63,543 nucleotides of DNA from an uncultured Gammaproteobacteria bacterium (GTDB lineage: Bacteria > Pseudomonadota > Gammaproteobacteria > Steroidobacterales > Woeseiaceae). Both the position numbers and the translations under genes were made by a program. Positions within the stretch are counted from its first letter, which is position 1. The number at the start of each line of letters is the position of its first letter. Shown here piece by piece: positions 1,661 through 22,423 of the stretch. The notes under the pieces were generated by a model, which ran no database searches, was not told where the DNA came from, and saw nothing but the letters and a program-made list of their open reading frames with translations. Location of the stretch: NCBI GenBank assembly GCA_937899415.1, contig CALBPI010000088.1, positions 1 to 63,543 of the forward strand, read 5' to 3'.

Positions 1661-2632
1661 CTAGGGTTCCCCCGAATAAACGCGTACCCAGTCGACTTCC
1701 ATCGTTGCCGGGAACACGGTAGTCGCGTTCGGCGAACCGGGAAGGTTGCCGCCCACGGCCAAGTTGAAAATGATGTAGAACTGATGGTCGAACGGCGCCG
1801 GGTACGGGCCATTCGTTGAGAACCAGTTGTTCTGAACGGCGTAGAGCACGTCGTCGACATACCAACGCATTTCGTTGGCGTCCCATTCGGTGGCGTAGAC
1901 GTGGAATTCGTCCGTGACACTTGAGGGCACCGTGTAATCGACAGAGGTGAACTGGTTGCCCGGGAATTCGGCGCCGTAGTGGATGGTGCCGAAGACATTG
2001 TTGCCGCCAACGCCGCCTAAATTGACCGCTTCCATGACGTCGATTTCGCCACTGGCGGCCCAAGTGCCGTAGGGGCTGTCCTGGGACAGCAGCCAAAACG
2101 CTGGCCAGAGGCCCTGACCGGCAGGCAGCTTCATGCGCGCCTCGATGCGCCCATAGCGGAATGCGAAGCGGTCTCGCGTGTTAATGCGTGCGGAGGTGTA
2201 GTTGAAGATGCCCGTGTTTTGACCCGCGGGCGCTACGAGCTCTTCTTCGCGCGCCGTGATCTTGAGCATGCCGCCTTCGAGCTGCGCACTGTCTGGCAGG
2301 TAGTACTGCAGCTCGTTGTTGCCCCAACCCGGAATGCCGGCTTCGGTGCCGTCGCCCGTTTCGAAGAACCACTTCGACGTGTCGAATGTTGTCCCGTCGA
2401 ATTCGTCGCTAAACACCAGTGTCAGGCTTTCGCCTGGGTCAACCTCTTCGTTCAATGCGACGGTGAGCGTGGGGTTCGTGCTATTGACGTTCGTCTGTAC
2501 AGGTACAGCGCCCGGAGGGGCGATATTGACGTCTCCGAGCTCTTCGGCCCGATCACTGCCACAGGCAGCCAGCGTAGCCGACACGAAAAGCACCGCGAAT
2601 GGGCGCACCAGCGCGCCCTTTGCCGTTGTCAT
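1661..2632 (-). CDS. GH16 family endo-beta-1,3-glucanase (laminarinase), lipoprotein
   Basis: The 323-residue protein has a lipoprotein signal (lipobox TLAAC, Cys24) and a single GH16 jelly-roll domain from about residue 70 to the end. The signature GEIDVMEAV gives Glu196 (nucleophile), Asp198 and Glu201 (acid/base). The protein closes with the usual VRVY strand. The family hydrolyses internal beta-1,3 (mixed 1,3/1,4) glucan bonds; the neighbouring GH17 and GH3 genes point to laminarin. The ATG at 2632 was chosen because it starts the signal peptide and follows GGGGGGAC; an upstream in-frame ATG (2707) gives no signal. A palindromic operator lies 80 bp upstream, and the repeat-domain lipoprotein follows on the same strand. 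Confidence 0.95.
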   Translation of the reverse strand: MTTAKGALVRPFAVLFVSATLAACGSDRAEELGDVNIAPPGAVPVQTNVNSTNPTLTVALNEEVDPGESLTLVFSDEFDGTTFDTSKWFFETGDGTEAGIPGWGNNELQYYLPDSAQLEGGMLKITAREEELVAPAGQNTGIFNYTSARINTRDRFAFRYGRIEARMKLPAGQGLWPAFWLLSQDSPYGTWAASGEIDVMEAVNLGGVGGNNVFGTIHYGAEFPGNQFTSVDYTVPSSVTDEFHVYATEWDANEMRWYVDDVLYAVQNNWFSTNGPYPAPFDHQFYIIFNLAVGGNLPGSPNATTVFPATMEVDWVRVYSGEP

Positions 2633-2711
2633 GTTCTGTCCCCCCGCCGATGGATGTGTCAGCCGCCCCCTGCGGCCACCCACCTCGACTGGGGGATGGT
2701 TTAACAAACGA

Positions 2712-2725
2712 TGACAGCGTTGTCA
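2712..2725. promoter_or_regulatory. Palindromic operator upstream of the GH16 gene
   Basis: TGACAGCGTTGTCA is an almost perfect 14-bp palindrome with a central CG, as in LacI-family operators. The same core and right flank (TCAATTTnCGCC) recur at 7387-7402 before GH3 and the symporter. On the GH16 coding strand the site begins with TTGACA, a consensus -35 hexamer, so binding would compete with RNA polymerase. The binding protein is not identified; the local LysR is a less natural match than a LacI-type repressor encoded elsewhere. Confidence 0.7.
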
Positions 2726-2799
2726 ATTTTCGCCTTGTGGGAAGGGGGTTGGACGAAAATTGGACGCGCTGGTGCGCGACGCCGGGCGGCGCCGGGGGG

Positions 2800-2988
2800 T
2801 TAGCAGCCAGGCTGCTCCGCGGGTTGCCAGTCGTTCCGGGGCTCGGGACGCGTGACAGCGGGGGGCTTCGGAGCTGCCTTCAGCCGGTCATCGGCCACGA
2901 TGACAGGCGCCATGAATGACGCCATCACGGAATGGCCGCGGAGGCTGAAAGCAAACGGATCGCGCTTGGCTTTTCGTTGCGTTGCCAT
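2800..2988 (-). CDS. Small hypothetical protein (62 aa)
   Basis: A 62-residue reading frame starts at an ATG (2988) preceded by a strong Shine-Dalgarno (AGGAGGA, about 7 nt away), which is the main evidence that it is translated. The N-terminus is basic (MATQRKAKRD), a short hydrophobic patch follows (VMASFMAPVIV), and the C-terminus is rich in proline and charge. There is no clear signal peptide, metal site or known domain. It sits between the LysR gene and the GH16 operator on the same strand. I do not recognise the family; a role in the glucan locus is only suggested by position. Confidence 0.6.
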   Translation of the reverse strand: MATQRKAKRDPFAFSLRGHSVMASFMAPVIVADDRLKAAPKPPAVTRPEPRNDWQPAEQPGC

Positions 2989-3085
2989 GATCAGGGTCCT
3001 CCTGTGTTGGCGGGATCGGAGGGGGGGTTCCTCTCCCACGTCGTCACAGTAAGGACGCCGCAAGGCGATCTCAAACGAGACGTTT

Positions 3086-4003
3086 TCAGCCCCGGGTTGA
3101 GTTTTTCTCAACGGCCTCGCGGAACGATTCGAGGATCCATTCACGCAGCAGACGAACGCCGCGGCGATCTCCCGTGCCCGATTTCCAGACCAGGTAGTAG
3201 GCGCTGCGCATCAGCAATTCTTCCCGAAACAGGCGGACGAGGCTGCCCTCTTCGAACCACAGCTCACCCATGGGCATGGGCACAAGCGCAGCGCCCAAAC
3301 CCCGTTGGGCGGCGCGCACGACCGCGATCATCGAGTCGAACTGCATTGACTGACGTGGCGCCGGTAAGGCGATGTTGGCCGACTCGGACCATTGTGGCCA
3401 TGCCTTGGACAAGGTCTCGTGAACGATCAACGGAAAGTCACTCGAGATACGGCGCTTGGACACCTTGAGGCTGGCTTTGAACTCAGGCGAGCCGGCTGGC
3501 ACGAGTCGCAATGGAAAGAGGCGTTCGTGCTCGAAACCTACAGGGGCCGTACTGAACAACCGCACGGACAAATCGGCGTCAGCGGGGTGCTTTTCGGAAG
3601 CCTCGTCACTGGTGCCCACCCGAATATCGATCTCGGGATGTTGTGCCGTGAAGTCCTTCAGCCTGGGTACGAAATACTCACTCGCAAAGAACGGCTGTAC
3701 AGAGACGCGCACGGTTTCCTGTGCCGCAGCGCCGGTCTCGTATCGCGAGACCACATCATCAACGGCATCAATCAGCGGTGCGAGTTCGTCGAACAAGGAC
3801 TGCCCAGCCTCCGTCAGTGAGACCTCACCGCCACGTCGCCGAAACAGCGCAATCCCGAGCTGTGACTCCAGCGTCTTGATTTGGTGACTGACCGCCGAGG
3901 GCGTGACGAACAGCGCCTCCGCGGCTGCGCGAAAGCTCGCGTAGCGCGCCGCAAGGCAAAAGGTCCTCAGGCCGCGTAACGGTGTGCGTGCCGGTTTGCT
4001 CAC
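3086..4003 (-). CDS. LysR-family transcriptional regulator (GcvA-like)
   Basis: About 305 residues with an N-terminal winged helix-turn-helix typical of LysR (LRTFCLAARYASFRAAAEAL then TPSAVSHQIKTLESQLG) and a C-terminal substrate-binding-like effector domain from about residue 95. Length is normal for the family. The GTG at 4003 is preferred because AGGGA lies 9 nt upstream; a TTG at 4012 would sit against that site. The gene begins 21 bp after the GH17 stop, so it is most likely the last gene of the GH3-GH17-lysR operon. That arrangement, rather than a divergent target, suggests it is co-induced with glucan use. The ligand is unknown. Confidence 0.9.
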   Translation of the reverse strand: MSKPARTPLRGLRTFCLAARYASFRAAAEALFVTPSAVSHQIKTLESQLGIALFRRRGGEVSLTEAGQSLFDELAPLIDAVDDVVSRYETGAAAQETVRVSVQPFFASEYFVPRLKDFTAQHPEIDIRVGTSDEASEKHPADADLSVRLFSTAPVGFEHERLFPLRLVPAGSPEFKASLKVSKRRISSDFPLIVHETLSKAWPQWSESANIALPAPRQSMQFDSMIAVVRAAQRGLGAALVPMPMGELWFEEGSLVRLFREELLMRSAYYLVWKSGTGDRRGVRLLREWILESFREAVEKNSTRG

Positions 4004-4024
4004 GGGTGGCAATCCCTGTGGCGA

Positions 4025-5071
4025 CTAGTCTTCGCGAAAGTACGCTTTGGGCGTGCGGTCAACGAAGAACAAGCCCCAGTGCTTCTCAGCGCCCGTCGGA
4101 TTGTCCGGGTTGCCCTTCCAGGGTTCGTCGAACGCCTCGAAAAAGAAGATCGTGACGTTGGCCTTGGTGGCCCAACCCTCGAGTTCCCGGTAGTAGCGTG
4201 CCTGGTTTGCCTCACTCGCCCGCTCACCGAACTCCGACGCCGTCGTCGCCCAGCCCGCCTCGAGGATGGCGAGATTTGACCCAGGCAATGCGCCGTGCAC
4301 GCGATTCATATTTTCGATTGTGTAGCTTAAGCCCTCATCGATCGGCTTCTCTTCCCAAGCGGGATAGGTGTGCACCCCGACGTAGTCCAGCTCCGCGGCG
4401 AGCGGCTGACCCTCCGCGATCCACCATTCATAGTTTTCAGCGACCGTTACGGGTTGGTCGATTGCGGCTTTCACCTCGCGAACGTAAGCAATCATGCTGT
4501 CGAGCGGCACCATATGATCGGTCCAGTTGACCAGCGCTTCGTTGCCCACGTTGACCGAAACGATAATGTCACTGAACTCTTTCGCCAGCGCGATGCCCTT
4601 CGCAACCTCTTCCACATTTTTCTTGGTATTGGCGGCAAGCTCTGACTCCGGGATCGGCGCGTCGAGCCACGGGCAACCCTCGTGGTTTGAAAACTCAGCA
4701 TTCAGCCATAAGCCCTGCAACACGCGAATAGGCAGGTCGTTGTCGCGAATCAGCTCGAGCGTTGTTCGCGAATTCTCGCCGGCATCGTAGAGACGGATGA
4801 GACCGAACCCATGCTCTACAAGGATGTTCAGGTCTTCGAGGATCTGCTCCGGTGTGGGATTGTTCGCGCCGTTGCCACGATCAGGATGTTGGCCTTCGCG
4901 AAAGCCCGAATAGGCCACAGCCATAACCTGGTCCTGCAGCAATGCTGCAGCATCTTGCTGCAGTTCCGCGGGTTGCGTTGCCACGGGCTTATCCTCTGCC
5001 GAATACCGGCAGCCGGCCAGCACGAGTGCAAGCCCCGTGGTTGCCAGCGCAAGGCGTATTGCTGATGTCAT
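4025..5071 (-). CDS. GH17 family beta-1,3-glucan hydrolase, lipoprotein
   Basis: A 348-residue lipoprotein (lipobox LAGC, Cys21) with a complete GH17 TIM barrel. Family landmarks are IRLYDAG near residue 92, the acid/base glutamate in VGNEAL (Glu178), YVGVHTYP near 230 and the nucleophile in AILEAGW (Glu271), followed by FFFEAFDEPWKG. GH17 enzymes cut beta-1,3-glucan or transfer the products. The ATG at 5071 follows GGAGCAGCAAC. It lies 34 bp behind the GH3 gene and just ahead of the LysR gene. Together with GH16 (endo-acting) and GH3 (exo-acting) it makes a full laminarin degradation set. Confidence 0.93.
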   Translation of the reverse strand: MTSAIRLALATTGLALVLAGCRYSAEDKPVATQPAELQQDAAALLQDQVMAVAYSGFREGQHPDRGNGANNPTPEQILEDLNILVEHGFGLIRLYDAGENSRTTLELIRDNDLPIRVLQGLWLNAEFSNHEGCPWLDAPIPESELAANTKKNVEEVAKGIALAKEFSDIIVSVNVGNEALVNWTDHMVPLDSMIAYVREVKAAIDQPVTVAENYEWWIAEGQPLAAELDYVGVHTYPAWEEKPIDEGLSYTIENMNRVHGALPGSNLAILEAGWATTASEFGERASEANQARYYRELEGWATKANVTIFFFEAFDEPWKGNPDNPTGAEKHWGLFFVDRTPKAYFRED

Positions 5072-5105
5072 GTTGCTGCTCCATCACTAGTCATCCGCCC
5101 AGCGC

Positions 5106-7328
5106 TTATGCCGCTGGGTGCAGGTAAAACCCGCTCTCCAGGTCCGCGTCAGAATCTCCGCCAACCCATAGTTGAAATGCACCAGGCTCCACGCGCCACT
5201 CGTCGTTGCGGTCGTAGAAACCAAGATCCTCGCTGTGCAGCTCGAAATGCACGGTGACGGTTTCGCCGACCCCTATCGAGACGCGCTCGAAGCCTTTGAG
5301 CTCTCGTACTGGTCGCGTCACATTGCCCACCAGGTCGCGCACGTAAAGCTGCGCCACTTCGTCGCCAGCCTGGGCGCCGTGGTTGGTCACGCGCACGGTA
5401 ATGCCGAGGGTCTCGCCCACCGAAAGCGCGTGCCGATCTAGCTGCAGGTCGTGGTAGTGGAACTGGCCATAGGACAGTCCAAAGCCAAATGGAAATTGCG
5501 GGCGGTGGCCTGCATCGAGGTGGTACGCGCTCATGCCCAGCGAAGTCTGAGGCGCGCGCGTGTGTAAGCTGTCGATGTGGGCAACCTGGCCCGGCAATGG
5601 CGGCTTGCCTGTCATCTTGTGGTTGTAATAGATGGGCACCTGCCCGACGACACTTGGAAAAGTGATGGGCAGCTTACCCGAGGGCGACACGTCACCCAGC
5701 AGGACTTCGGTAATCGCGGGGCCGGCCTCGATGCCGGGATGCCAGGCGTACAGCAGCGCATCGAAATCGTTGATGACGTTACTGAGCGTCAGCGGCCGAC
5801 CGGCCAGAATGACACCAACTACCGGCTTGCCCGCGGCACGCACAGCATGCACAAGTTCGCGCTGAGCGCCGGGCAGATCGATGTCCGCGCGACTGTGTGC
5901 CTCGCCCGAAAGGATCGACTCTTCGCCAAGCCCGAGCACAACGACGTCGGCATGGGCCGCCAGTTCACAGGCGGCGGCCATGTCACGGGTGTCCCGCGAG
6001 CGTGAATGCTCGAACACACGGAGATAGCTGAGCTCGATGTCATCGCCAAGTTGTTCGCCGAGTGCCTGGCGCAGCGTCACGCTCAATGACGCGTCGCCGT
6101 CAAAAATCCAGGTACCGAGCTGCTGGTAAGGCGCATCGGCGAGCGGCCCGAGCAAAGCCACGTTTTTTAGTCGGCCACGGTCGAGCGGCAGCAGGTTGTC
6201 GTGGTTCTTCAATAGCACAAGACTCTGACGCGCGGTCTCGCGCGCCGTCGCACGCATGCGCACGGGGTCCGGCGCCGGGAGCGTATCGTTGTCGACAAAC
6301 GGCCGCTCGAACAAACCGAGCAGGCATTTGACGCGAAGCACGTTGGACACGGCCGCATCGAGGAGCGCTTCAGCAATTTGGCCCGACTCAATGAGTTCCT
6401 CGAGATGGTGCGCGTAAGCCTCGCCCTGCATTTCAATGTCGACACCGGCCTCGCAAGCTTCGCGAGCGGCTTCGCGGTCGTCTGCGGTTAGTCCGTGAAT
6501 ACTGAGCTGACGAACCGAGTCCCAGTCGCTCACGACCAGCCCCTCAAACCCCCACTCGTCCCGCAGCACCTGGCGCAGCAGAAAGCGGCTGGCCGTGCAG
6601 GGCATGCCGTCAATTTCGCTGAATGAGGTCATCAAGGAAAGCGCACCGGCCTCAACCGCAGCGCGGAACGGGCGCAGGTGCACGTTACGCAGTTCGTTGC
6701 GCGGCAGGTTGGTCGTGTCGTAGTCACGCCCCGCGTCGACACCACCGTAGCCGGCGAAGTGCTTGGCGCACGCCGCGATGGCCGTTGGCGCCGACGGGTC
6801 ATCGGTCTGGAAGCCTCGCACCATGGCCGCAGCCAGTTCGCTCGCGAGATGCGGGTCTTCGCCCAGGCATTCGGCGACGCGACCCCAGCGCGGGTCGCGC
6901 GTGACATCCATCATCGGCGCGAAGGTCCAGTTGATGCCGGCACGGGCGGCCTCTTCCGCCGCCACGCGGGCGCCGGCAAGCACAAGCTCGGGGTTCCAAG
7001 TCGCTGCCTGCCCCAACGGAATCGGCAATACGTGGCGGAAGCCGTGAATGACGTCACGGCCAATCAGCAGCGGAATGCCAAGGCGGCTTTCCTCCACCGC
7101 AATGCGCTGAAGCTCTTTGACGATGTCTGGATTGGCATTGTTGATCACCGATCCCAAACCGCCCGCACGCAAGCGCTCGCCCAGGTAATCGGGCGGGTAG
7201 CCGTGGCTGCCGTCGAGCTGCACGAGCTGGCCGACCTTTTCGGACCGCGTCATGGATCCGAGCAGTTCTGCCACACGCTCGCGAACGCCAACGGCGCCCG
7301 AAAGCGACGTTTCAAGTGAAGCGCTGAT
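5106..7328 (-). CDS. GH3 family beta-glucosidase, cytoplasmic
   Basis: The first gene of the GH3-GH17-lysR operon encodes a BglX-like GH3 enzyme without a signal peptide. It has an N-terminal barrel with KHFAGYG and the nucleophile aspartate in VVSDWDSV, an alpha/beta domain, and a C-terminal fibronectin-III-like domain ending in FQLWVGGDSD. Counting from the GTG at 7274 it is 722 residues with Asp250 as nucleophile. Typical GH3 sequence (VRERVAELLGSMTRSEKVGQL) continues upstream of that GTG with no ATG, GTG or TTG. A GGGGAC ribosome site lies 5 nt before an in-frame ATC at 7328-7326, giving 740 codons; I take this as the probable start. It presumably releases glucose from oligosaccharides imported by the divergent symporter. 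Confidence 0.9.
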   Translation of the reverse strand: MSASLETSLSGAVGVRERVAELLGSMTRSEKVGQLVQLDGSHGYPPDYLGERLRAGGLGSVINNANPDIVKELQRIAVEESRLGIPLLIGRDVIHGFRHVLPIPLGQAATWNPELVLAGARVAAEEAARAGINWTFAPMMDVTRDPRWGRVAECLGEDPHLASELAAAMVRGFQTDDPSAPTAIAACAKHFAGYGGVDAGRDYDTTNLPRNELRNVHLRPFRAAVEAGALSLMTSFSEIDGMPCTASRFLLRQVLRDEWGFEGLVVSDWDSVRQLSIHGLTADDREAAREACEAGVDIEMQGEAYAHHLEELIESGQIAEALLDAAVSNVLRVKCLLGLFERPFVDNDTLPAPDPVRMRATARETARQSLVLLKNHDNLLPLDRGRLKNVALLGPLADAPYQQLGTWIFDGDASLSVTLRQALGEQLGDDIELSYLRVFEHSRSRDTRDMAAACELAAHADVVVLGLGEESILSGEAHSRADIDLPGAQRELVHAVRAAGKPVVGVILAGRPLTLSNVINDFDALLYAWHPGIEAGPAITEVLLGDVSPSGKLPITFPSVVGQVPIYYNHKMTGKPPLPGQVAHIDSLHTRAPQTSLGMSAYHLDAGHRPQFPFGFGLSYGQFHYHDLQLDRHALSVGETLGITVRVTNHGAQAGDEVAQLYVRDLVGNVTRPVRELKGFERVSIGVGETVTVHFELHSEDLGFYDRNDEWRVEPGAFQLWVGGDSDADLESGFYLHPAA

Positions 7329-7386
7329 GACCTGTCCCCTGTGTCAGCACGCCGAAACGTGCATGACCGACGAGTATGGGCAACGT

Positions 7387-7402
7387 TTGACAGCGCTGTC
7401 AA
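7387..7402. promoter_or_regulatory. Perfect 16-bp palindromic operator between GH3 and the symporter gene
   Basis: TTGACAGCGCTGTCAA reads the same on both strands and matches the site at 2712-2725 in core and right flank. It carries a consensus TTGACA -35 hexamer on each strand, and it lies 58 bp from the symporter ATG and 59 bp from the proposed GH3 start. One bound repressor could therefore close both divergent promoters. On the GH3 side a CATACT -10 candidate lies 18 bp further on. Confidence 0.75.
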
Positions 7403-7459
7403 TTTGCGCCAGTGTGCAGGCGGGGAAAGTTTGCACGCGCGTTGGGGGGACTTCGCGGC

Positions 7460-8914
7460 ATGGCAGAAACTGCACATTACGAAACGGCACCAGAAGACCG
7501 TATTCCACCGCTGAAGAAGTTCATCTACGGCATGGGCGCGTTCGCAAACAACGTGCTTGCCGATGGCATTGGACGCATGATCATTGTGCTCAACCTGGGC
7601 CTGGGCATGAGCCCTACGCTCATGGGCACACTCGGCGCGCTGCCACGATTCATGGACGCGCTCACCGACCCGCTGATGGGGTACATCTCCGACAACACAA
7701 AGTCTCGGTGGGGTCGAAGACGACCTTATATTTTTGTCGGCGCTATTCTTGCGGGCGTGGTATTCGCCTTGATGTGGCAGTTTCCGCGTGGGCAGAGCGA
7801 GTCGTTCTATTTCTGGTTCTTCCTGGGCGGCTCACTGCTGTTCTTCCTGGCCTATACGGTTTACGCCACACCCTGGGTCGCGCTGGGCTATGAGCTCACA
7901 CCCGACTATCACGAACGCACGCGCCTCATGGGCGTGCAGTTCTTTATCGGGAGCACCGTCTACCTGATCTCGCCCTACTTTGGCGCCTTTATGGCCGCTG
8001 ATTTTTTTACGGACCTCGTCGAGGGTGCGTCGTGGCTGGCCATCATTATTGGTCTCTCGGTGATCGCCACAGGGCTTCTGCCAGCGATCTTTCTGCGTGA
8101 ACGGTTCAAACAGGCGGACGATGACGGCGAAGCACGGCCTACCATTGGCCAGGTTCTCGCGGACTTCTTCAAGGGCTTCTGGCAGACGATTAAGTTCGTG
8201 CCGTTCCTAAAGCTCTGCATTGCCACCTTCATGGTGTTCAACGGCTTTATTCTTATCGCCGCATTCCAGTCCTACGTCATCATTTATTACGTGTTTGGCG
8301 GCGATGTCGAAAAGGGCTTCACGTGGGTAGGACACGCAGGCCTTGTGCAGCAACTCTCAGCGCTCGTCATCATCGCACTCATCACGTGGCTTGCGACCAA
8401 AATCGGCAAGCGGCGCGCCTTCTTCTTCGCCGTCGGCATGTCCATTGTCGGCTATGCGCTCAAGTGGTTTTGCTACACGCCTGACAACCTGTGGCTCATG
8501 TTCATTCCGGCGCCGTTCATGGCATTTGGACTCGCTGGCTTGTTTACGCTCGTGCCGTCCATGGTGGCCGACGTCGTTGACCTCGATGAACTCGACACCA
8601 ACGAAAGACGGGAAGGCATGTTTGCGTCCATCTTCTGGTGGGTGGTCAATCTGGGATCATCGGCAGCTATCTTTGGCGGCGGCATCCTGTTGACTGCGAC
8701 CGACTTCAACGTGGAGCTCGAGGGTGCGCAAACGGCCGAGACGATACGCCTGATGCGACTGTTTGACGCATTCATTCCTTGCGTCACATCGGTGATCGCA
8801 ATCTGGGCAATCGCGTCGTTCACCATCACAGAAGAGCGGGCCCACGAGATTCGCGAAGAACTCGAGGCACGTCGTGGTGCTGGCGATAGCGAGCCGGAGC
8901 CTGAGCCGGCCTAA
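7460..8914 (+). CDS. MFS sugar:cation symporter, GPH family (MelB/XynB-like)
   Basis: A 484-residue inner-membrane protein with about 12 hydrophobic segments. The motif SDNTKSRWGRRRPYIFVG in the first cytoplasmic loop (about residue 80) is typical of glycoside-pentoside-hexuronide:cation symporters. A second loop has DELDTNERREGMFAS, also a family landmark. The ATG at 7460 follows GGGGGGAC; the upstream in-frame ATG at 7412 would put an arginine-rich stretch ahead of it. Divergent transcription from the GH3 operon around a shared operator indicates that the substrate is glucose or a beta-1,3-gluco-oligosaccharide. The C-terminus is acidic and repetitive. Confidence 0.92.
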   Translation: MAETAHYETAPEDRIPPLKKFIYGMGAFANNVLADGIGRMIIVLNLGLGMSPTLMGTLGALPRFMDALTDPLMGYISDNTKSRWGRRRPYIFVGAILAGVVFALMWQFPRGQSESFYFWFFLGGSLLFFLAYTVYATPWVALGYELTPDYHERTRLMGVQFFIGSTVYLISPYFGAFMAADFFTDLVEGASWLAIIIGLSVIATGLLPAIFLRERFKQADDDGEARPTIGQVLADFFKGFWQTIKFVPFLKLCIATFMVFNGFILIAAFQSYVIIYYVFGGDVEKGFTWVGHAGLVQQLSALVIIALITWLATKIGKRRAFFFAVGMSIVGYALKWFCYTPDNLWLMFIPAPFMAFGLAGLFTLVPSMVADVVDLDELDTNERREGMFASIFWWVVNLGSSAAIFGGGILLTATDFNVELEGAQTAETIRLMRLFDAFIPCVTSVIAIWAIASFTITEERAHEIREELEARRGAGDSEPEPEPA

Positions 8915-8923
8915 GGCCAGGCG

Positions 8924-11900
8924 CTACCGCGTCAAACGCAGCACGACACGTCGGTTGGCCGCCCGGCCTTCCGCTGTGTCGTTGCTCGCGATGGGATCAT
9001 CCTCGCCGTAGCCCGCCACCGTCATCTGTTCGCGCGGGACACCGCGTTCCTCGAGTGCATTCCGAACGCTGCGCGCACGGCGCTCTGACAAGCCACGGTT
9101 GTAATCGGCGTTACCCCGATCATCGGTATAACCCGCCACTTCAACGATCACCGACGGATTACTCCTGAGCGTCTTGGCCGCCGCGTCGAGCTCTGATTCC
9201 GCACCCGACAGCAGCCGGTCCGAATTCGTTTCGAAGTTCACGCTGGGCAAGCGTATCTCGACGATGCTCTCGCGAATGACCTCACAGCCTCTGCTGTCGA
9301 CAACGGCGCCTTCTGCCGTATCGGGGCAGGCATCAACGCCGTCGAGCACGCCGTCGCCATCGCTGTCTTGAGCGCAGCCTTTCTCGTCGACTACAGTGCC
9401 GGCCGGTGTATTGGGACAGGCGTCAGCCTCGTCGTTTACGCCATCACCGTCACGGTCGACAGGCAATGCGCAGCCCGTGGCATCTACAGCGGTGCCAGCG
9501 GGTGTGCCCGGGCATTGGTCCGTGTCGTCATAGACGCCATCGCCGTCACTGTCTACCGGCAAGGCCGCAAGCGGCGATGAACGATCGCGCTCACCGAACT
9601 GCCAGCCCACCGAGATGCCCGCGAACCAGGCGTCGCGGTCGTACCAGTCGACGGTACCGCGCACGAACCAGGGTGAGTCACCGAGATCGACATCGACGCC
9701 CGCGCCGAATGCGAGCTGGATGGAGCTCTGCTTGTCGAAAGGAATGGGCGCACCCGAGCCGCTGTTGCGGATCGTCGACAGACCGACCTTGCCGAACGGG
9801 CGCACGCGCTTATCGGTACGCAGGCGGTAGCCCGCCATGAGCGAGGGCACCTTGTAGCTGATCGCCGCATCGGGGAACGCCGCCGCGATGGCCGGGTTGC
9901 GGTTGGTGATGCCCGCCTCGCCGAGGTCGGCGTAGTTGAGCTCGGCGAACCAGTGTTCCGTGAACTGGCGGCCAAGCGTGACCTGCCAGCCCGAGTCGTG
10001 GTTCTCGTCGGCATCATGGATGAAGTTGTTGGCGGCTTCGTCGGGCGAAACGTAGGAGTAACCGAGGCCCGCAGCCACGTACCAGCAACCCGCGTCGTCG
10101 CCATCGTCGATGGCCTGCGCGCAGTCCTTCTCGGCGCGCGCCGCGGGCACCGCGAGCACAAACAGTACGAGCGTTGCGGCTGCATGGCGGTGCAGACGTC
10201 GCTGCACCGCGAGCATGAGGCCGAGCGCCAGCAGGAACACCAGTCCGATGCTGCCGGTGCCCGATCCCGTCACAGCGGTCTCGAGCTCGCCGTCCGACTC
10301 GAGCCGGTCCAGCACGCCATTGCCATCGGCGTCGGCATCACCCTCAAGCTCATCATCGATACCGTCGTTATCGCTGTCGGGATCGATGTAATCGGGCAAG
10401 CCGTCACCATCGGTGTCGACGGGGTTGGTCGCGTCGGGGCCTGCTTCAGTTTCATCGTCGATGCCGTCATTGTCGCTGTCCGTGTCATTGACGTCGGGGA
10501 TACCGTCGCCGTCTGTGTCGCCGCTACCTTCCACGTCGTCGGGGATGCCGTCGCCATCGGCGTCGGGCAAGGTGCCGAAACCGTCGGCCTGGTCGGCGCC
10601 GTCTGCGATGCCATCGCCGTCGCTGTCGGTGGTGTCATCGATGACGCCGTCACCATCACCGTCGAGCGGACCAAACGGTGTGCCTGCGATATCGGGGGTG
10701 CCATCACCGTCGCTGTCGGTTTCGCGCCAGTCGCCGATGCCGTCCGTGTCCGAGTCTATCGGCATCACGATGCTGCCCTCGTTGTTGACGAGGTCATCGA
10801 TAAGGCCGTCGGCATTCGCGTCAGGGCCACCGCCTTCGACGACATCGGGGATGCTGTCGTTGTCGGCGTCGAGATCGATGAAGTCGGGCGCCCCGTCACC
10901 ATCGGTGTCGGTCACCTGTGCCGCGTCATCGACGCCGTCACCGTTGCCGTCCGCCCCCATCGTGAGGTCTACATCGAACACGTCATTGATTTGATCGCCG
11001 TCCGCATCGGCCATCACGTCTAGATCGGCTTCGACGGTATCGGGAATGCCATCGTTGTCACTGTCGATATCGATCGCATCACGCAAGCCGTCTCCATCGC
11101 TGTCGACGACCACGGTCGCGTCAGCAACACCGTCACCGTTACTGTCGGTGGCGCCCGGCACGGTATCGACGTCGTAGCCGTCATCGATGCCGTCGCCGTC
11201 GCTGTCGATGCCCGTAGCAATGACATCTTCTACGAAGTCAGGAATGCCGTCGTCGTCGCTGTCGGGATCAAGGAAGTCGGCGATGCCGTCGCCGTCGCTA
11301 TCCGCATCACCCTCAATCGCATCCGGAGTACCGTCGTTATCGGAGTCTGGGTCTATGGTGTCGACCAGGCCGTCACCATCGCTGTCGACAGGCATGCCCG
11401 GCATCGGGCCCGCCTCGTCGGCATCCGGGATGCCGTCGTTATCCGAGTCGGGGTCGAGCGCGTCGATGATGCCGTCACCATCGGTGTCACCGGTTTCGAC
11501 GCCATCGGGGATGCCGTCGCCATCCGAGTCATCGCTGGCCGGGTCTGTACCGTTGGCGATCTCGTCGCCGTCGCTCACGCCGTCGTTGTCGGTGTCGCAG
11601 GTGGCCACGGTGTTGTCGGGCACGCACGGATCGCTGTCAGCTCCCGCATCGGGCTCGACCGGAACCGCCGTGGTCGGCGTGCCGAAGTCCGCGGCGCCAT
11701 CGCCGTCACTGTCGAGGCAACCCTGGCCCGGGAAGTTGGGTACGCAGGGGTCCACAGGATCGGCGTCGTTGCCGTCCGTGATGCCGTCGCCGTCGCTGTC
11801 GATCTGGTCGTCGGTGCCGTTGCCCGAGGTCGGGTTGGTGCCGTCGTTCAAGATCTCTGCACCGTCGTCGATGCCGCCGTCGTCGCTATCCGTGTCGAGC

Positions 11901-14900
11901 GGATCTGTGGCACCACTGCCACCGAGCTGGCCGATACCGTCCTGCTCATTACCGTCGGTCAGGCCATCGCCATCCGTGTCGGCATTGAGCGGATCGGTTT
12001 CGCCGCTGCCCGACGTCCCCGTGCCACCAATGGTGTTGGCAGTCGCACCATCGCCGTTGGCGTCTTCGAGACCGTCCTGAAGGCCATCGTTGTCCGTATC
12101 AGCGTCGGTCGGATCCGTGGTCGTTGAGGGATCGGCGTCGACCGTGAAGTTTCCGGCGCCCGTGTCGGTACCCGCGACCGGAACACCGTTGACGTCGCTC
12201 ACGGTCGGCGCGATAGGCGTTGTGACGCCCGTCTCGAGGCCGTCGCTCAGACCGTCGCCGTCGCTGTCTGCCGCATTCGGGTTGGTTTCATCGCCCGTGT
12301 TCGGCAGGCCGTCGGCGCCCACGACTTCGTCGCCATCGCTGACACCGTCGTCGTCGGTATCAGCATCGAGCGGGTTCGTATCGCCCGCATTGATGAACGC
12401 GTCGTTGCCTGTTTCATCACCGTCGTCGATGCCGTCGTTGTCCGTGTCGGGGTCGTCAGGGTCCGTGCCCAGAATGGCTTCCTGCGCGTTGGACAGGCCA
12501 TCGCCATCAGGGTCGGCCGCCGCGTCATCAGCGCCGTTGCCCGACACGGGCAACGTGCCGTCGGCCAGCACCTCAGTGCCGTCCTCAGTGCCACCGTCGT
12601 CACTGGCCGTGGCGAGCGGTTCGGTCGGGCCCAGGCCCGCAAGCGGTCCTGTGCCTGCGGCTTCTTCGCCGTCGAACAGGCCGTCGCCGTCGGTGTCGCG
12701 GTTGTTGGGATCGGTTTCGCCCGAACCCGCATTGCCCGTGCCGCCGATGGTATTGACCGTGGCACCGTCACCGGTGGCGTCCTCGATGCCGTCGAGAAGA
12801 CCGTCATTGTCGCTATCGGGGTCGGTCGGATCGGTCACCGTGCTCGGGTCCGCATCGGGCACGTAGTTCGCCGAACCCGTGTCGGTGCCCATGTAGGCGA
12901 CACCGGTACCGTCGCTCGTGCCACCCGCGACCGGTGCGGTCACACCGATCTCAGTACCGTCGTTGATGCCGTCATCGTCGGTGTCGGCATTCAGCGGGTC
13001 GGTTTCGTCGCCGTTGTTGGCGACGCCGTCGGCGCCCAGCGTCTCGGCGCCGTCGCCGATGCCGTCGTCGTCGGTGTCGGCGTCAAGCGGATTCGTGTCG
13101 CCCGCATCGAGCGAACCGTCGTTGCCTACTTCCGCGCCGTCGTCGAGACCGTCGTTGTCGCTGTCGGCGTCATCGGGGTCGGTTCCGAGTACCGCTTCCT
13201 GTGCGTTCGACAGGCCATCGCCGTCAGGATCGGCCGCGGCATCGTCAGCACCGTTGCCCGACAGCGGGTTCGTCGCGTCAGCCAGCACCTCGGTGCCGTC
13301 CTGCGTGCCGCCGTCGTCGGAGTCGGCGTCGAGCGGATCGGTGGTGCCCAGGCCCGCGAGCGGGCCCGTGCCGTTCACTTCGTCGCCGTCATTGAGGCCG
13401 TCGCTATCGGTGTCGGCCTGGTTCGGATCGCTTTCGCCCGAGCCTGCGCTCGCGCTGTCACCAATCGTGTTCAGCGTCTGGCCGTCGCCGTTGGCGTCCT
13501 CGACACCATCGTCGAGACCGTCGTCATCGCTGTCAGCGTCGGTTGGGTCTGTGGTCGTCGCGGGATCCGCGTCGCCCGTGAAGCCCGGCGCCGTGCCGTC
13601 GTAGGCAATGCCCGAGCCGTCGCTGACGCCACCCGCAACACCCGGCGTGGCCACGCCGGCCTCGATGCCGTCGTTGATGCCGTCGCCGTCTGTGTCCGTG
13701 TTCAGCGGATCCGTTGGCCCGTAGCCTGTGAGCGGACCCGTGCCGTCGACCTCGGTGCCATCAGAAAGACCATCGTCGTCACTGTCAGCGTCGAGCGGAT
13801 CGGTTTCGCCGGCGCCCAGCACGCCATCGCTGCCGGCTTCTTCGCCGTCGCTAAGGCCGTCGTCATCGGAGTCGGCGTCGTTGGGGTCGGTGCCGAGCGC
13901 GCCTTCGAGCGGATCGGAGATGCCGTCGCCATCGCTGTCGACCGCGTCATCGAGACCGTTGCCGGGTGTCGGGTCCGTGCCGTCCGTCAGGACCTCGGCG
14001 CCGTCGAGTGCGCCGCCGTCGTCGGTGTCCGTGTCGAGCGGATTGGTGTTGCCGATGCCTGTGAGCGGACCCGTCGCATTGACTTCGTCGCCGTCGCTGA
14101 GGCCGTCGCCATCGGTATCGCTGTTGCCGGGATCGGTTTCACCGCTGCCCGCAGCGCCACCCGTGCCACCAATCGAGTTGACCGTCTGGCCGTCGCCGTT
14201 CGCGTCTTCAACGCCATCGTCGAGACCATCGCCATCGGTGTCCGCGGCAAGCGGGTTCGTGGTCGTGCTCGGATCAGCGTCGCCATCAAAGGCACCGTCC
14301 GTGCCACTAATGGGACCCGCACCGTCAGGATCGGCGACGCCAGCCACGCGACCCAATTCGACGCCATCCACAATACCGTCGCTATCGCTGTCGGGATTAC
14401 TCGGGCTGGTTTCACCGGCCTGCTGAATGCCGTCGCCGTTGGCGTCTTCGACGCCGTCGGCCAGGCCATCATCATCGCTGTCGCGGTCGAGCGGGTTGGT
14501 CTCGCCCGGATCGATCGTCGCATCGCCGCCCGTTTCGACACCGTCGGGAATACCGTCGGCATCGCTGTCGGGGTTGTTGATGTCGGTGCCCAGTGCGGCT
14601 TCGTCTGGATCGCTCAGTCCGTCGCCATCGCTATCGTTGGTGCAGCCCGGTGCGGTCGTGGACGGGATGCAGGGGTCGCCGTTGGCAGGATCGGCCTGGT
14701 CGTTGGTGCCGTCGCCATCGGCATCGTTGATCGATGACTCGAGGTAGTCGGGCGTACCGTCACCGTCCGTGTCGGCCGTCGGGCCTTCGACGCTGTCGGG
14801 CGTGCCGTCGCCATCGGTATCCGTCGTGCAGCCCGTGCCGAACTGCGAGGGGACGCAAGGGTCGCCGTCGTTGGCATCGAGCTCGTCGGGCGTGCCGTCG

Positions 14901-17317
14901 CCGTCCGCGTCATTGGTCCCCGACTCAAGGTAGTCGGGCGTGCCGTCGCCGTCCGCGTCGTTACTTGCGCCGCCCTCTGCAGACGTGTCCGTGCCATCGT
15001 TGTCGTCGTCGGTGTCGCGCCAGTCGCGGTCCGCATCACCGTCAAGGTTCTGCAATGGCGCGTTGCCGCCGATTGCATTGAGCGGATCGGGCGCTGTCGT
15101 CGTGTCAAAGTTGTCGTTGAGCCCGTCGCCGTCGGCATCGGCATTGCCAGGCGCAGGTGTAATGTCAGCCACGCCGTCGTTGTCGGCATCGAAACCTTCT
15201 ATCGCATCCGCAACGCCGTCGTTGTCGCTATCGTCGTCGAGGTAGTCGGGCTGGTCTGCACCGTCCGTGTTGATGGGCGATAGTGCGGCACCGCCCTGAT
15301 CAGGGTCGTAGGCATCATCAATGCCGTCGCCGTCCGTGTCCGTGCCCGTCGGCGGGACGTAACCCGCCTCGGTCTGGGCCTCGATGTTGTCGACGATGCC
15401 GTCATTGTCGCTGTCGATATCGCGCAGGTTCGGGACGCCGTCGCCATCACTGTCACCCGCGCCGTCGGTGGTGTCGGGAATGCCGTCGTTGTCGTCATCA
15501 TCGTCATTGATATCGATGATGCCGTCGCCGTCGGTATCCGTGCCCAGCACGCCGGTATCCGTGCGCACAACGGAGGCACCCACCGCGTCGATCTGATCTG
15601 TGTATTCGACGCTTACGCCGTTGCCCTCGCCCGCGTTCAGCGTGCCATCGTTGTTGGGGCCGGCGACCGCTGAGGCGGTAGGCACATTGGCCGTAAACGT
15701 GCCCGTGTTGGGTCCCGTTTCCGTGAGCACGACCTGCTCGATCTCGCCCGTCGTCGTGTTGATCACGTCGACGCCGACTGACTCGACAATACCGGCGTCG
15801 TTGTTGAGGTCGCTGTCAGTGACCGTGACCGAAACCGCGTCCCCTATCACCGTGATGTCAGGGATGTCGACGCTGCCGTCACTGCCCGTGATCAGCGCGT
15901 CGCCCGAGGTCACGTAGACGAGCGTCGAGGTCGTGGCAGTAAAGCCGTAAACATAGGTATCGATGAAGCGGTCGTTGCCGAAGCCCGTTCCCGAGAAGTT
16001 GCCCCAGGTGTGGCGTCCGGCGCTCGTGTTCGAGAGCTCGCCGTCGGGCAGTGTTGTCGTGCCACCGGCGGCCCCGCCCAGGATCGTGACGTCATCCCAG
16101 AACACACGCGTCGGCTGCGGCGTGTCGGTTTCATCGACGAGAAAGATGGTCAGGCCGTCTTCGGTGCCGCCACTGGTTTCGGCGTCAAAGGCCACGAAGT
16201 GGTACTCGCCCATGCGCACGCTGATGCGCGCGCTGTAGACGCCGTCGCCCAGCGTGGCACCGGTCGCATCGGTGCCGTCCCAGGCGACGCTGTTGGCGCC
16301 CACAGCAACGGGGCCCAGAAGCAGTCGGTCGCCCGCATTGCCGAACACGCCGTCGCCGTCCACGTCGATCGTGATGGCGTAGGTGCCGGCAACGTCAGAC
16401 GTGAACTCGAAAAACCCCGTGTCCTGCACACCGATGGTGTCGCCCGGCGAGATGCCGCTGTCGACACCGGCATCATCAATGAATCGAATGTCCGTGATGA
16501 CGGGCGGCAATGCCGGCTGCGGCAGCGCCACGTCAGGAACGCTCGTGTAGATCGGAAACTGGTAGGTGACGGCGTTGCCCGCAAGCTCTGTCGAGTAACC
16601 CGAGTTCGGTGCGTCTACACCGATGTCGTTGGCCACGATGTAGTAGACGAAGCCCGCGAAGTTGTTGAGGTCGAGCTGCCAGACGTAGTTCGTGTTGGGA
16701 CGCCCGCCCGGGACGAGCGCGTAGAAGTCGGCGTCCGTGGCCGCGGAGACGTCGAAGGCACCCGCGTTGATGTTCCAGCTGTAGGCCCAGAGGCGACCGT
16801 CATCGGCCGTCGGGTCCGGGTCGTCGGTGCTGCCAGGCGGCGTCACCGTCACGTCGTAGCGGCGCAGGATGCTGTCGTTGTTGCCCGTCTCGCTCGTGTT
16901 CTCGAGGATGATCCGGTAAGTACCCGTCGTCGTTGCCGTGTATTGCGCCGGGTTGGTCAGCGGCGCTGTCATGGGGTCGTTGCAGGCCACGTTGCCGCTG
17001 GTCAGCGACTGCGTGAAGACACTGGTGTCGGTCGGGTCGAAGATCTCGATGAAGAGGTCGTCGCTGTCCGTGTTGCCGCACAGCGAGTTATTGATGATCT
17101 CGTTGGCCGTCGTGTTGTCGACGAACAGGGACTGCGAATTGGCGTCGATGGCAAAGCCGCGGTCGAGCGCGCGTTCGGCGTCGAACAAGGGCTGGTTGAT
17201 GCCGATCTGGGCCGAGCCTTCGGCCAGCGCCTGGGGTGACGCGATGCAGGCTCCTGCCAGGATCATTGCGGTCAGTGAACGGATCCGGCGAGCGGGCGAC
17301 GAAATCTTCTTCTGCAT
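8924..17317 (-). CDS. Giant thrombospondin type-3 repeat protein fused in frame to an OmpA-family protein
   Basis: 2,797 codons from an ATG at 17317 (GGGAGAAG upstream; a GTG directly before it is possible). Order: signal peptide ending ASPQALA; non-repetitive adhesin-like region to about residue 590; then about 1,750 residues of Asp-rich TSP3-type calcium-binding repeats ([16 protein letters not shown]). Next, around residues 2347-2372, comes a Gly/Ser motif, a hydrophobic helix ([15 protein letters not shown]) and RRLHRH, like a tripartite C-terminal sorting signal. It continues without a stop into a second signal peptide ([14 protein letters not shown]), an eight-strand-type OmpA beta-barrel, three more TSP3 motifs and a C-terminal OmpA peptidoglycan-binding domain ([24 protein letters not shown]). 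Likely role: cell-surface adhesion or envelope anchoring. The two halves look like separate ancestral genes. Confidence 0.88.
11830..14560 (-). repeat. Higher-order tandem repeat inside the TSP3 region (about 238 residues per unit)
   Basis: Within the giant gene the short Asp-rich motifs are arranged into long units of about 705-720 bp. The landmark [16 protein letters not shown] or a variant, followed by SGETDP, recurs at about 14170, 13465, 12745 and 12030. Each unit then carries GTGPL, SDDGGTxDGTEVL, a [19 protein letters not shown]-type block, a GNDG block and a [12 protein letters not shown] block. The copies differ by many substitutions, so the expansion is not recent throughout. Confidence 0.8.
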
Positions 17318-17704
17318 CACGGACAGCTTCTCCCTGTGTCCCTGGAGCCCGCCGCGCCTCGCGGCAAGCCGCGCCCGGAGGCGCGAATTGCACATAATGT
17401 ATGCCAATTGGATGGGCGGCCGGCGAGAACCAGGTCTCGTTTTGGCCATGCCGCAGCCGCAGCATAGCGATGTAAACGCCTAATTACCCAGTGATTCTGC
17501 GGTTTACATGCAGGTTACGTGAGCCCGGTCACGGCGCGGCGCCCGCCCAGGCGTGCACCCGTCACCCTGGGGGTGCGTCCTACTTTGCGGCGATTCGGCC
17601 GCTATGGGGGTGAACAGATGCCACGTCACGTCTGACAGCCGGCCCCGCTTCGGGCAAAATGACAGGCGGACGCCCGAAGCGAACCTCCAAAGCAAAGGCC
17701 ACGG
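17318..17704. other. Intergenic region between the giant gene and the response regulator
   Basis: 387 bp between divergent genes. It should hold promoters for both. Visible structure is a 6-bp inverted repeat (GCACCC 17555-17560, GGGTGC 17571-17576) and a longer one at 17646-17681. No convincing -35/-10 pair or coding frame was found. Confidence 0.5.
17646..17681. promoter_or_regulatory. 10-bp perfect inverted repeat upstream of the response regulator
   Basis: CGCTTCGGGC (17646-17655) and GCCCGAAGCG (17672-17681) are perfect inverted arms separated by 16 bp, ending 23 bp before the ATG of the LuxR-type regulator. It could be an autoregulatory operator or a 5'-UTR hairpin. There is no T-tract, so a terminator is unlikely. 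Confidence 0.5.
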
Positions 17705-18364: not shown

Positions 18365-18394
18365 GTCCGACCCGCCTCTTTTGACAATAATTTG

Positions 18395-18417
18395 GGGGGC
18401 TGTCAGCAACAGTCCCC
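18395..18417 (+). terminator. Hairpin after the response regulator, possible weak terminator
   Basis: GGGGGCTGT (18395-18403) pairs with ACAGTCCCC (18409-18417) across a 5-nt loop with one G-U pair. There is no T-tract, so termination is uncertain; it could equally be a leader structure of the REC-EAL gene. Confidence 0.35.
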
Positions 18418-18559
18418 ACAATACGTCGCCAATCGGCCCTCTGTTCATGGGGGCGCCCCCAACCGAATATGGGTACCCAGCAACACCTACGACGCACACT
18501 TGCGGGTGATTGCATCTCGAGATGCCACGGACGGCGACTCGCAAACCAGGGATGGGGTC

Positions 18560-19780
18560 ATGAAGACACAGACGGTACTTACGAGTCGAAAGCCGCAGCC
18601 CGGCACGATGTTGATCATCGACGACGACGCGGGCATTCGCGGGCTGATTCGGTCGGTCGCCGAACGACAGGGATTCGAAGTTACCGACTGTGGGCGCAGC
18701 GAAGACGCGGCAGACGCCGCCGAAGAACGCGCCCCGGCCGTCATCACGCTCGACCTCAGCATGCCCGGTTGCGACGGCATCGAGGTGCTGCGACAACTTT
18801 CTGCAAAGCGTATCCGTGCCCGCATCTATCTGATCAGCGGTTTGTGCAAACGTGTGCTTGCCACGGCCAGCGACCTCGCGCACACGCTCGACCTTGACGT
18901 CGCGGGCACGCTGCGAAAGCCGTTTGACATTGCGCAACTGCGTGCCCTGCTCGCCGAAGAGTGGCGTTTCGAGAAGGTGCTCACGGCCGCCGATTTACGC
19001 CACGGCATCGAACGCGGCGAGCTCGTGGTGCACTACCAGCCGCGCGTCAAACGGCATGGCGAGCGCTGGGTGATCTCTGGCGTGGAGGCGCTGTGCCGCT
19101 GGCAGCACGCGCAGCACGGTCTCGTGATGCCCGACGCCTTTATTCCCATCGCCGAGCGCTCCGGCGCCATCGGCGCACTGACCAACTATGTGCTCCGCGA
19201 AACCATCGAGCAGTTGGCCCGCTGGGAGGCAGCGGGCCATCGGCTCACGGCCAGCGTCAATATTTCCGGCGCCCTGCTCGGTGATCTGGAGCTACCCGAC
19301 AGACTGGCCACGATGCTCAGCACGCACGGGCTCACACCGGACCGACTCATCCTCGAGATCACCGAGACTGCGGCCATGGCCGACCCGGCGCTAACCATGG
19401 ACATCCTCACGCGGCTGCGCGTCAAAGGCTTCGATGTCGCCATGGACGACTTCGGCATCGGGTTCTCGTCGATGCAGCACCTGTTCCGCCTGCCGTTCAG
19501 TGAGCTCAAGATCGACAAGTCCTTTGTGCTCGAGATCAGCAAGAGCGCGAACGCGCGGACGCTTGTCTCGGCTCTCGTGGAGCTTGCACACAATTTTGAT
19601 ATGAGCGCGTGCGCAGAAGGTATCGAGGACGAAGACATCCTCGGCTTCCTGACGGACGCCGGCTGCGACACGGGCCAGGGCTTTCTGTTCAGCCCCGCGG
19701 TGCCCGAGCAGGAACTCATCGGGCTCATCGAGTCTGACGCTTTTTCGACGTCACAGGACAAGGTGCCGCATAGCGCCTGA
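18560..19780 (+). CDS. Response regulator with EAL domain (cyclic di-GMP phosphodiesterase)
   Basis: 406 residues from an ATG at 18560 after GGGATGGGGTC. The receiver domain (about 15-135) has the acidic pocket IIDDDAG, phospho-acceptor Asp65 (ITLDLSMPG) and Lys120. The EAL domain (about 145-395) keeps the residues expected of an active enzyme: HYQPRV, the GVEALCRW signature (Glu176), the Asn of SVNISG, LEITE, AMDDFGIGFSS, LKIDKSF, CAEGIED and GQGFLFS. It should hydrolyse c-di-GMP to pGpG in a phosphorylation-controlled way. No GGDEF partner lies in the window. A small GC-rich hairpin follows before the convergent glycosyltransferase gene. Confidence 0.93.
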   Translation: MKTQTVLTSRKPQPGTMLIIDDDAGIRGLIRSVAERQGFEVTDCGRSEDAADAAEERAPAVITLDLSMPGCDGIEVLRQLSAKRIRARIYLISGLCKRVLATASDLAHTLDLDVAGTLRKPFDIAQLRALLAEEWRFEKVLTAADLRHGIERGELVVHYQPRVKRHGERWVISGVEALCRWQHAQHGLVMPDAFIPIAERSGAIGALTNYVLRETIEQLARWEAAGHRLTASVNISGALLGDLELPDRLATMLSTHGLTPDRLILEITETAAMADPALTMDILTRLRVKGFDVAMDDFGIGFSSMQHLFRLPFSELKIDKSFVLEISKSANARTLVSALVELAHNFDMSACAEGIEDEDILGFLTDAGCDTGQGFLFSPAVPEQELIGLIESDAFSTSQDKVPHSA

Positions 19781-19909
19781 GTGACTTTCAACGTGTGCTG
19801 GAGGGACGCCCCGGCAAGGAAGCCGGGCAACCGGGGCAGGCGGCGGCGCAGGGACTGCGCTTCCAGGGACGGAAGCCGTCCTGCCCCGACCCGGCGCGCG
19901 CTCGACGAA

Positions 19910-21070: not shown

Positions 21071-21209
21071 CGGCGGGTCTGCCTGCTAGTAGTCGCGCGC
21101 AGATCAACGACCCCCGCTGGGACGCGCCGTAGTGTGCACGCTGCACGCGGAAGCGTCCACCGACCCCGTTTGCTTGTGGCTGCCCGGCGCACGGCGCTAT
21201 CGTAGGCGC

Positions 21210-22318: not shown

Positions 22319-22423
22319 GGAACCCCGCGCCCCCAGGCGCGGTCGAAGCTCACATAACAGATGCCCCGAGGACGCAGGCCCGATACCATTCGCCATGCCA
22401 ACCACGAGGTGCCCCCACCCCCC

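Follow-up and report, generated by a model that had tools for sequence, protein, structure and literature searches.

Results

One frame joins a TSP3-repeat protein to an OmpA-type protein

The window, the whole stretch of DNA analysed, covers positions 1–63,543 of contig CALBPI010000088.1 (assembly GCA_937899415.1) from an uncultured gammaproteobacterium of the Woeseiaceae. On its minus strand, 8924–17449 is one open frame, 2841 codons long without its stop; frame and coordinates were re-checked, and translation runs uninterrupted from 17449 to the stop codon at 8924. The frame encodes, in this order, a TSP3 protein, an 11-residue sorting motif, a hydrophobic helix, the sequence RRLHRH, a signal-peptide-like segment ending ARA/E, an eight-stranded barrel, further TSP3 motifs and an OmpA domain. 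As read from the sequence, ATG 17317 is the likely start and gives a signal peptide of normal appearance; a motif count shows that TSP3-type repeats are dense from 15541. The features are as follows:

17222–17317 (−): signal peptide of the surface half, MQKKISS...PQALA/EGSA (sequence reading; start and cut picked by eye)
15542–17221 (−): N-terminal stretch of the surface half ahead of the repeats (by eye like L039, unlike L040 and L042)
10286–15541 (−): TSP3-type repeat region up to the sorting motif (Pfam TSP3_bac PF18884 in 11 stretches; 58 motifs of the D-x-D-x-D-G type counted)
10253–10285 (−): 11-residue sorting motif (L9, E10, T11, A12 and G15 invariant in 5/5 sequences of alignment A1; variable in further relatives)
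10202–10252 (−): first hydrophobic helix, 17 residues, GlyGly-CTERM-like (hydropathy; AlphaFold helix of low confidence)
10184–10201 (−): basic loop RRLHRH, predicted to be cytoplasmic (positive loop in 22/23 close junctions)
10133–10174 (−): second hydrophobic segment, 14 residues, signal-peptide-like, ending A-R-A before E2440 (AxA in 20/23 close junctions, sites by eye; region-wide test on 57)
9596–10087 (−): eight-stranded beta-barrel (PF13505; eight long strands in AlphaFold; OmpA barrel 9fzc, TMt 0.77)
9290–9556 (−): TSP3 motifs linking barrel and OmpA domain (PF02412, 3 stretches)
8951–9235 (−): OmpA/Pal peptidoglycan-binding domain (PF00691)
10214–10216 (−): in-frame internal ATG (M2412), at which the OmpA half might start, though without support (sequence)
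10205–10207 (−): in-frame internal GTG (V2415), a possible but unsupported start (sequence)

The residues EKDC begin at 10132 (−), directly after the segment ending PAARA, and the barrel starts 15 residues past this signal-like segment. Because 425 residues follow the first helix, the sorting signal does not lie at the extreme C-terminus. Downstream of the junction, Pfam matches were found for OMP_b-brl (5.8e-14), TSP_3 (1.9e-10) and OmpA (9.3e-23), and the second half belongs to the OmpA family by its PF00691 score (80.9 bits, cut-off 27.2) and its eight-stranded barrel. An AlphaFold model (13 sequences; mean pLDDT 78.7, pTM 0.44) contains two helices of low confidence, whereas confidence is high for the OmpA domain and for the barrel with its eight long strands, with 14 of 16 ten-residue blocks of the barrel at pLDDT 81–95. 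The best PDB matches of the predicted structure are OmpA and OmpA-like domains. A preliminary description had proposed a TSP3 protein whose tripartite sorting signal runs without a stop into a second signal and a full OmpA protein; this was confirmed, and its coordinates and description were correct.

Positions 1661–8914 hold what appears to be a beta-glucan-type use locus (GH16, a LysR regulator, a weak GH17, a GH3 beta-glucosidase and a GPH-type sugar symporter), and positions 18392–24952 encode a response regulator with an EAL domain, a glycosyltransferase, GH53 and an MMPL transporter. These neighbours were considered as functional context and set aside: they look like a glycan-use locus without evident link to the fused gene.

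The fusion recurs in related genomes

Fused counterparts were found when 60 relatives were searched with the C-terminal half, and they occur in four other genera (genomes G040, G051, G015 and G017). All five sequences (A1) share LETA, a Gly/Ser motif, a helix, basic residues, a second helix and A-x-A; invariant columns include L9–A12, G15, G19, S20, G22, A57 and A59. In a scan of long OmpA-matching ORFs, L044–L047 and L049–L051 yielded no counterpart of this kind, and L048, a long ORF with an OmpA match, was by eye another protein. L043 (G008:C1:2162500-2182000) is by eye also another protein, a 5603-aa ORF with an LEPRILLS motif at its start and, close to its end, an OmpA-type match that precedes a GlyGly-like tail with basic residues last, an order opposite to that seen here. 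The fused orthologues L039 and L040 carry two OmpA-type stretches in tandem at their C-terminus.

Of 396 genomes of the order, 22, our own included, were hit by a profile of the junction region. The profile also hit 13 loci in a public genome collection, including loci of Marinibactrum halimedae NBRC 110095 and of Marinagarivorans algicola Z1; the relatives from this collection are placed in the Gammaproteobacteria, several of them in the Woeseiaceae. All 23 distinct readable junctions (own included) continue in one frame; L070, L072, L073, L075, L076 and L090 were set aside as partial, at a contig end or without an evident fusion. The preliminary description had named homologues lacking the internal hydrophobic segments as evidence against it. 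Of 60 barrel ORFs with a long N-terminal part (over 150 aa ahead of the barrel; our gene and the two named strains included), 57 carry two such segments in that part; the exceptions at the threshold we chose are L085 and L177 with one segment and L156 with none. In L085 the single segment between sorting motif and barrel ends VAHA, and in L156 a long stretch rich in charged residues precedes the barrel.

The fused or two-gene state changes repeatedly on a barrel tree

A profile of the barrel only (A3) matched 113 of 369 genomes of the class, own included. We classified the strongest class-wide matches together with the earlier ones, 116 rows including three duplicates (L107, L112 and L113, second copies of L181–L183). 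They comprise 57 two-helix fusions, 2 one-helix and 1 no-helix fusion, 31 separate genes with a sorting-tailed upstream gene, 24 genes standing alone and 1 undecided case. With duplicates removed and only the strongest class-wide matches kept, 90 ORFs remained: 36 two-helix fusions, 28 two-gene forms, 23 alone and 3 others; two-gene cases were chosen by the pattern of the upstream tail and starts by rule, so that some genes counted as alone may be missed pairs and distances may be off.

Where there are two genes, the first encodes a protein with a Gly-rich motif, a helix and a basic tail at its C-terminus, closed by a stop, and the second, by its chosen start, begins anywhere from 11 bases upstream to 87 bases downstream of the end of that stop. 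Twelve of the 28 pairs overlap, by exactly 4 bases in six and by 1 base in four. Relatives with two adjacent genes and an intervening stop, which the preliminary description had suggested looking for, therefore exist (28 of the 90 class-wide barrel ORFs). Its suggestion of a lost stop codon is further supported by a same-genus pair, G596 (fused) and G469 (two-gene), whose sequences align across the junction save for a 26-base gap: these bases, which hold the two-gene stop, are missing from the fused copy. This gap may reflect a single assembly error there.

On a barrel tree built by a quick method from 107 of the 116 rows (L067, L070, L077, L135, L176, the FUSED0 row and rows below 120 residues were left out), the fused or two-gene state changes at least 11 times, counted without direction of gain or loss. 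When fused rows are set against every other label, 19 changes are required, 9 of them forced by starred branches, and the smallest starred set containing our gene consists of 6 rows, all fused. The fused arrangement is real, widespread and repeatedly changing.

Several paralogous barrel loci, in fused, two-gene and alone states, are present per genome in G450, G586, G583, G404, G666 and G758, which suggests an expanded family of paired surface proteins. An earlier look upstream of free-standing OmpA genes, covering 14 of 29 loci, showed no tagged gene by eye, a result that the flanks and the motif filter make uninformative. The N-terminal halves vary: in L074 an N half free of TSP3 repeats precedes the hairpin and barrel, and the ~105 residues covered upstream in L164, L171 and L172 lack them as well. 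Two contig-cut cases aside, 12 fused ORFs stop within 8 residues of the barrel; the final residue is F or W in ten of these and non-aromatic in L063 and L095. A C-terminal residue of the F/W type is common in outer-membrane barrels.

The two helices and a predicted signal peptidase site

With the exception of L085, the loop between the helices carries 2–8 R/K and is free of D/E in the close junctions (22 of 23, own included). In windows placed by eye, small residues compatible with a signal peptidase site are present in all 23 and a strict AxA in 20, compared with a mean of 8.1 and a maximum of 14 after shuffling. Across an unselected region of all 57 two-helix fusions, [AVST]xA followed by a residue other than A was found in 53 (shuffled mean 35.9, maximum 45) and AxA in 36 (shuffled mean 23.6, maximum 34). 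Free-standing signal peptides from the two-gene and alone rows showed no excess in the same tests (AxA in 24/47, shuffles 19.5, maximum 30; [AVST]xA in 35/47, shuffles 32.0, maximum 40), and because they are not separated from their shuffles, the site tests are a weak guide. In our gene, ARA/E fits the pattern of a signal peptidase I substrate (n-h-c regions, small residues at −3 and −1), so that the second signal peptide of the preliminary description, with its predicted cut before EKDC, is present as a sequence pattern.

Sorting enzymes and the class of the sorting signal

Our genome encodes one rhombosortase above the cut-off (TIGR03902, 144.5 bits versus 84, GASG motif present), one C-terminal GlyGly tail above the cut-off together with two weaker matches, and one GspD above the cut-off; no MrtJ exceeded its cut-off (23.5 versus 75). 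Rhombosortase was found in 22/22 order-sample genomes with the junction-region profile versus 285/396 overall (Fisher p 0.0009, kinship ignored), and in 25/25 class-sample genomes with a fused gene versus 128/369 overall (p 6e-13, kinship ignored). It does not mark the fusion, because two-gene genomes of the class sample have it as often (25/26, the exception being G495).

Against the GlyGly-CTERM model TIGR03501 (cut-off 15.5), our first helix was not listed at E up to 10, a search in which the HMMER filters may drop weak matches, and our Gly/Ser motif has no Gly-Gly pair; the relatives L039 (18.4) and L060 (17.8) pass this cut-off. MYXO-CTERM was rejected for our signal (TIGR03901, 16.8 bits, below the cut-off of 20; no Cys in the segment), as was JDVT-CTERM (NF033191, no listed match; no Cys in the signal, and no MrtJ above cut-off in the genome). 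A JDVT-like Gly-x-Cys tail pattern fits 6 of 57 fusions versus 18 of 28 two-gene forms (loci L103–L183; kinship ignored). In a scan of the tails of ten relatives, five matched JDVT-CTERM best and two exceeded its cut-off, one of these inside the fused ORF L104 (30.9 versus 27). With some tails matching GlyGly-CTERM and others JDVT-CTERM, the layout seems to be served by more than one sorting system.

Discussion

We favour the view, at a probability of about 0.6, that the gene encodes an envelope polyprotein that arose by in-frame fusion of an ancestral gene pair and is cut by a rhombosortase and signal peptidase I into a surface protein and an outer-membrane partner at 1:1. The N-terminal signal peptide would start Sec export of the TSP3 half, and the first internal helix would act as a stop-transfer segment that leaves the basic loop cytoplasmic. 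Export would resume at the second helix, which would serve as an internal signal peptide; by cutting between A-R-A and E2440, signal peptidase I would release the barrel/OmpA half to the outer membrane and the peptidoglycan. A rhombosortase would cut at the Gly/Ser motif, so that the TSP3 half is processed for surface attachment and exported, probably via the type II secretion system. The outcome would be one surface protein for each outer-membrane partner. We infer this topology, both cuts, the surface location, the pairing of the two products, and a gene pair that is older than the fusion. Processing of the fused product is likely. The barrel of an uncut chain could presumably hardly reach the outer membrane with a hairpin 15 residues upstream held in the inner membrane. 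In favour of the polyprotein we count the two hydrophobic segments, the positive loop, the signal-peptidase-like residues, the two-gene relatives, the F or W ends at the barrel, and the rhombosortase, GlyGly tail and GspD of our genome; the unmatched first helix of our own signal, the relatives with one helix or none, the weakness of the site tests, the two non-aromatic ends and a rhombosortase equally common in two-gene genomes weigh against it.

Among the other readings, a chain cut only at the second site is unlikely but carries the most weight. The OmpA half would be freed, and the TSP3 half would either keep the two-helix hairpin as an inner-membrane anchor or be released by another protease such as GlpG. 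The missing Gly-Gly pair and the missing GlyGly-CTERM match of our own signal speak for it, as does the report that, in Vibrio lacking rhombosortase, VesB is cut by GlpG (PMC13393428). Against it stand the two relatives whose tails exceed the GlyGly-CTERM cut-off and the presence of rhombosortase in every fused-gene genome of the class sample. We consider it improbable that the fusion stays uncut, with the whole chain held in the inner membrane by the hairpin or with the hairpin simply a part of one protein. The one uninterrupted frame would fit this, but the barrel is an outer-membrane fold beginning just after a signal-like segment, and related barrels that are encoded separately begin with signal-peptide-like N-termini.

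An internal start, by which the OmpA half would also be made from ATG 10216 or GTG 10207 to give the fusion and a free OmpA protein, appears similarly improbable. Both codons, noted in the preliminary description, do exist and lie upstream of the plausible signal peptide, and some ATG, GTG or TTG falls within the tested range at 19/23 junctions. Neither codon in our gene has a visible Shine–Dalgarno-like sequence before it, however; 4/23 junctions lack any such codon in that range, and an SD-like sequence precedes one at 3/23. A conserved internal start was rejected on these counts. Least probable is that a sequence or assembly error deleted a stop, as the preliminary description had allowed. 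The source assembly is in 102 contigs, and G596 and G469 differ by just such a stop-holding gap; yet the same fusion is found in many genera and in two named strains, and both hydrophobic segments are kept although the region diverges to ~40% identity. Such an error was rejected on this recurrence, which contradicts it for the family as a whole.

The polyprotein that we favour has a partial precedent. In MXAN_5598 of Myxococcus xanthus, an internal MYXO-CTERM lies between an adhesin N half and a barrel/OmpA C half; its authors, in the portion of the paper on this protein, consider a possible gene fusion with a processed N half, call the layout atypical and indicate that internal sorting tags can work (PMC11980579, mBio 2025). 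Compared by description only, it resembles the present protein in combining an adhesin half, an internal sorting tag, an outer-membrane barrel and an OmpA domain in one ORF. It differs in having a Cys-containing MYXO-CTERM, a myxosortase and a host among the Myxococcota, and the passage on it makes no mention of a second signal peptide, two-gene relatives or rhombosortase cutting. The preliminary description had thought such a protein new, if real; this needs qualifying, as the layout is already in print (PMC11980579), and the present case is a rhombosortase-type variant of what was noted for one Myxococcus protein. What is new is the rhombosortase-type version, its breadth and the repeated switching between one gene and two. 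No other account of this layout was among the matches listed for the literature on MXAN_5598, rhombosortase with OmpA, sorting tags, myxosortase, JDVT and internal signals, mostly without subscription papers, and one literature search found no printed precedent for the internal signal peptide.

The outer-membrane exchange pair TraA/TraB is alike in that a sorting-tagged surface protein is followed by an OmpA-domain partner, and the four-base overlap described for the traA and traB ORFs (PMC3325183) is matched by 6 of the 28 two-gene cases here; unlike the present gene, it consists of two genes and uses MYXO-CTERM. An identity with TraB was rejected (NF033763, 133.6 bits against a cut-off of 700, matching only the TSP3–OmpA part of the OmpA half). 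For VesB, rhombosortase is described as cutting behind Gly-Gly, with addition of a glycerophosphoethanolamine moiety and export by the type II system (PMC6219818, PMC13393428). The present signal shares with such substrates a Gly/Ser motif, a helix and basic residues, and its genome has rhombosortase and GspD; it differs in being internal and in having no match to the model. GlyGly-CTERM signals have been described at the extreme C-terminus (PMC3237569), and the words 'internal', 'fusion' and 'OmpA' are absent from the main text of that paper. JDVT-CTERM (NF033191) likewise relates to the family through relatives, as the best match for half of the tails scanned and inside the fused L104, and not through our own signal or genome, which lack the Cys, a match and an MrtJ above cut-off.

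More broadly, and with the odds about even, the Gammaproteobacteria may possess a general hairpin that says 'sort here, restart there', in which an internal rhombosortase (or JDVT) signal directly before a cleavable signal peptide lets one ORF yield equal numbers of a surface protein and of the outer-membrane barrel that partners it. Its passengers would vary, and on many occasions it would have arisen from, or given way to, neighbouring gene pairs, which often overlap.

To our knowledge, bacterial polyproteins whose cleavage gives two envelope proteins bound for different places are rare. By analogy with TraA and TraB, the findings suggest barrel/OmpA partners dedicated to sorting-tagged surface proteins, for which no account in this class was found among the matches listed. 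Annotation that seeks sorting tags only at protein ends would overlook such substrates. Because natural one-gene and two-gene versions exist side by side, co-synthesis, stoichiometry and partner choice are directly testable.
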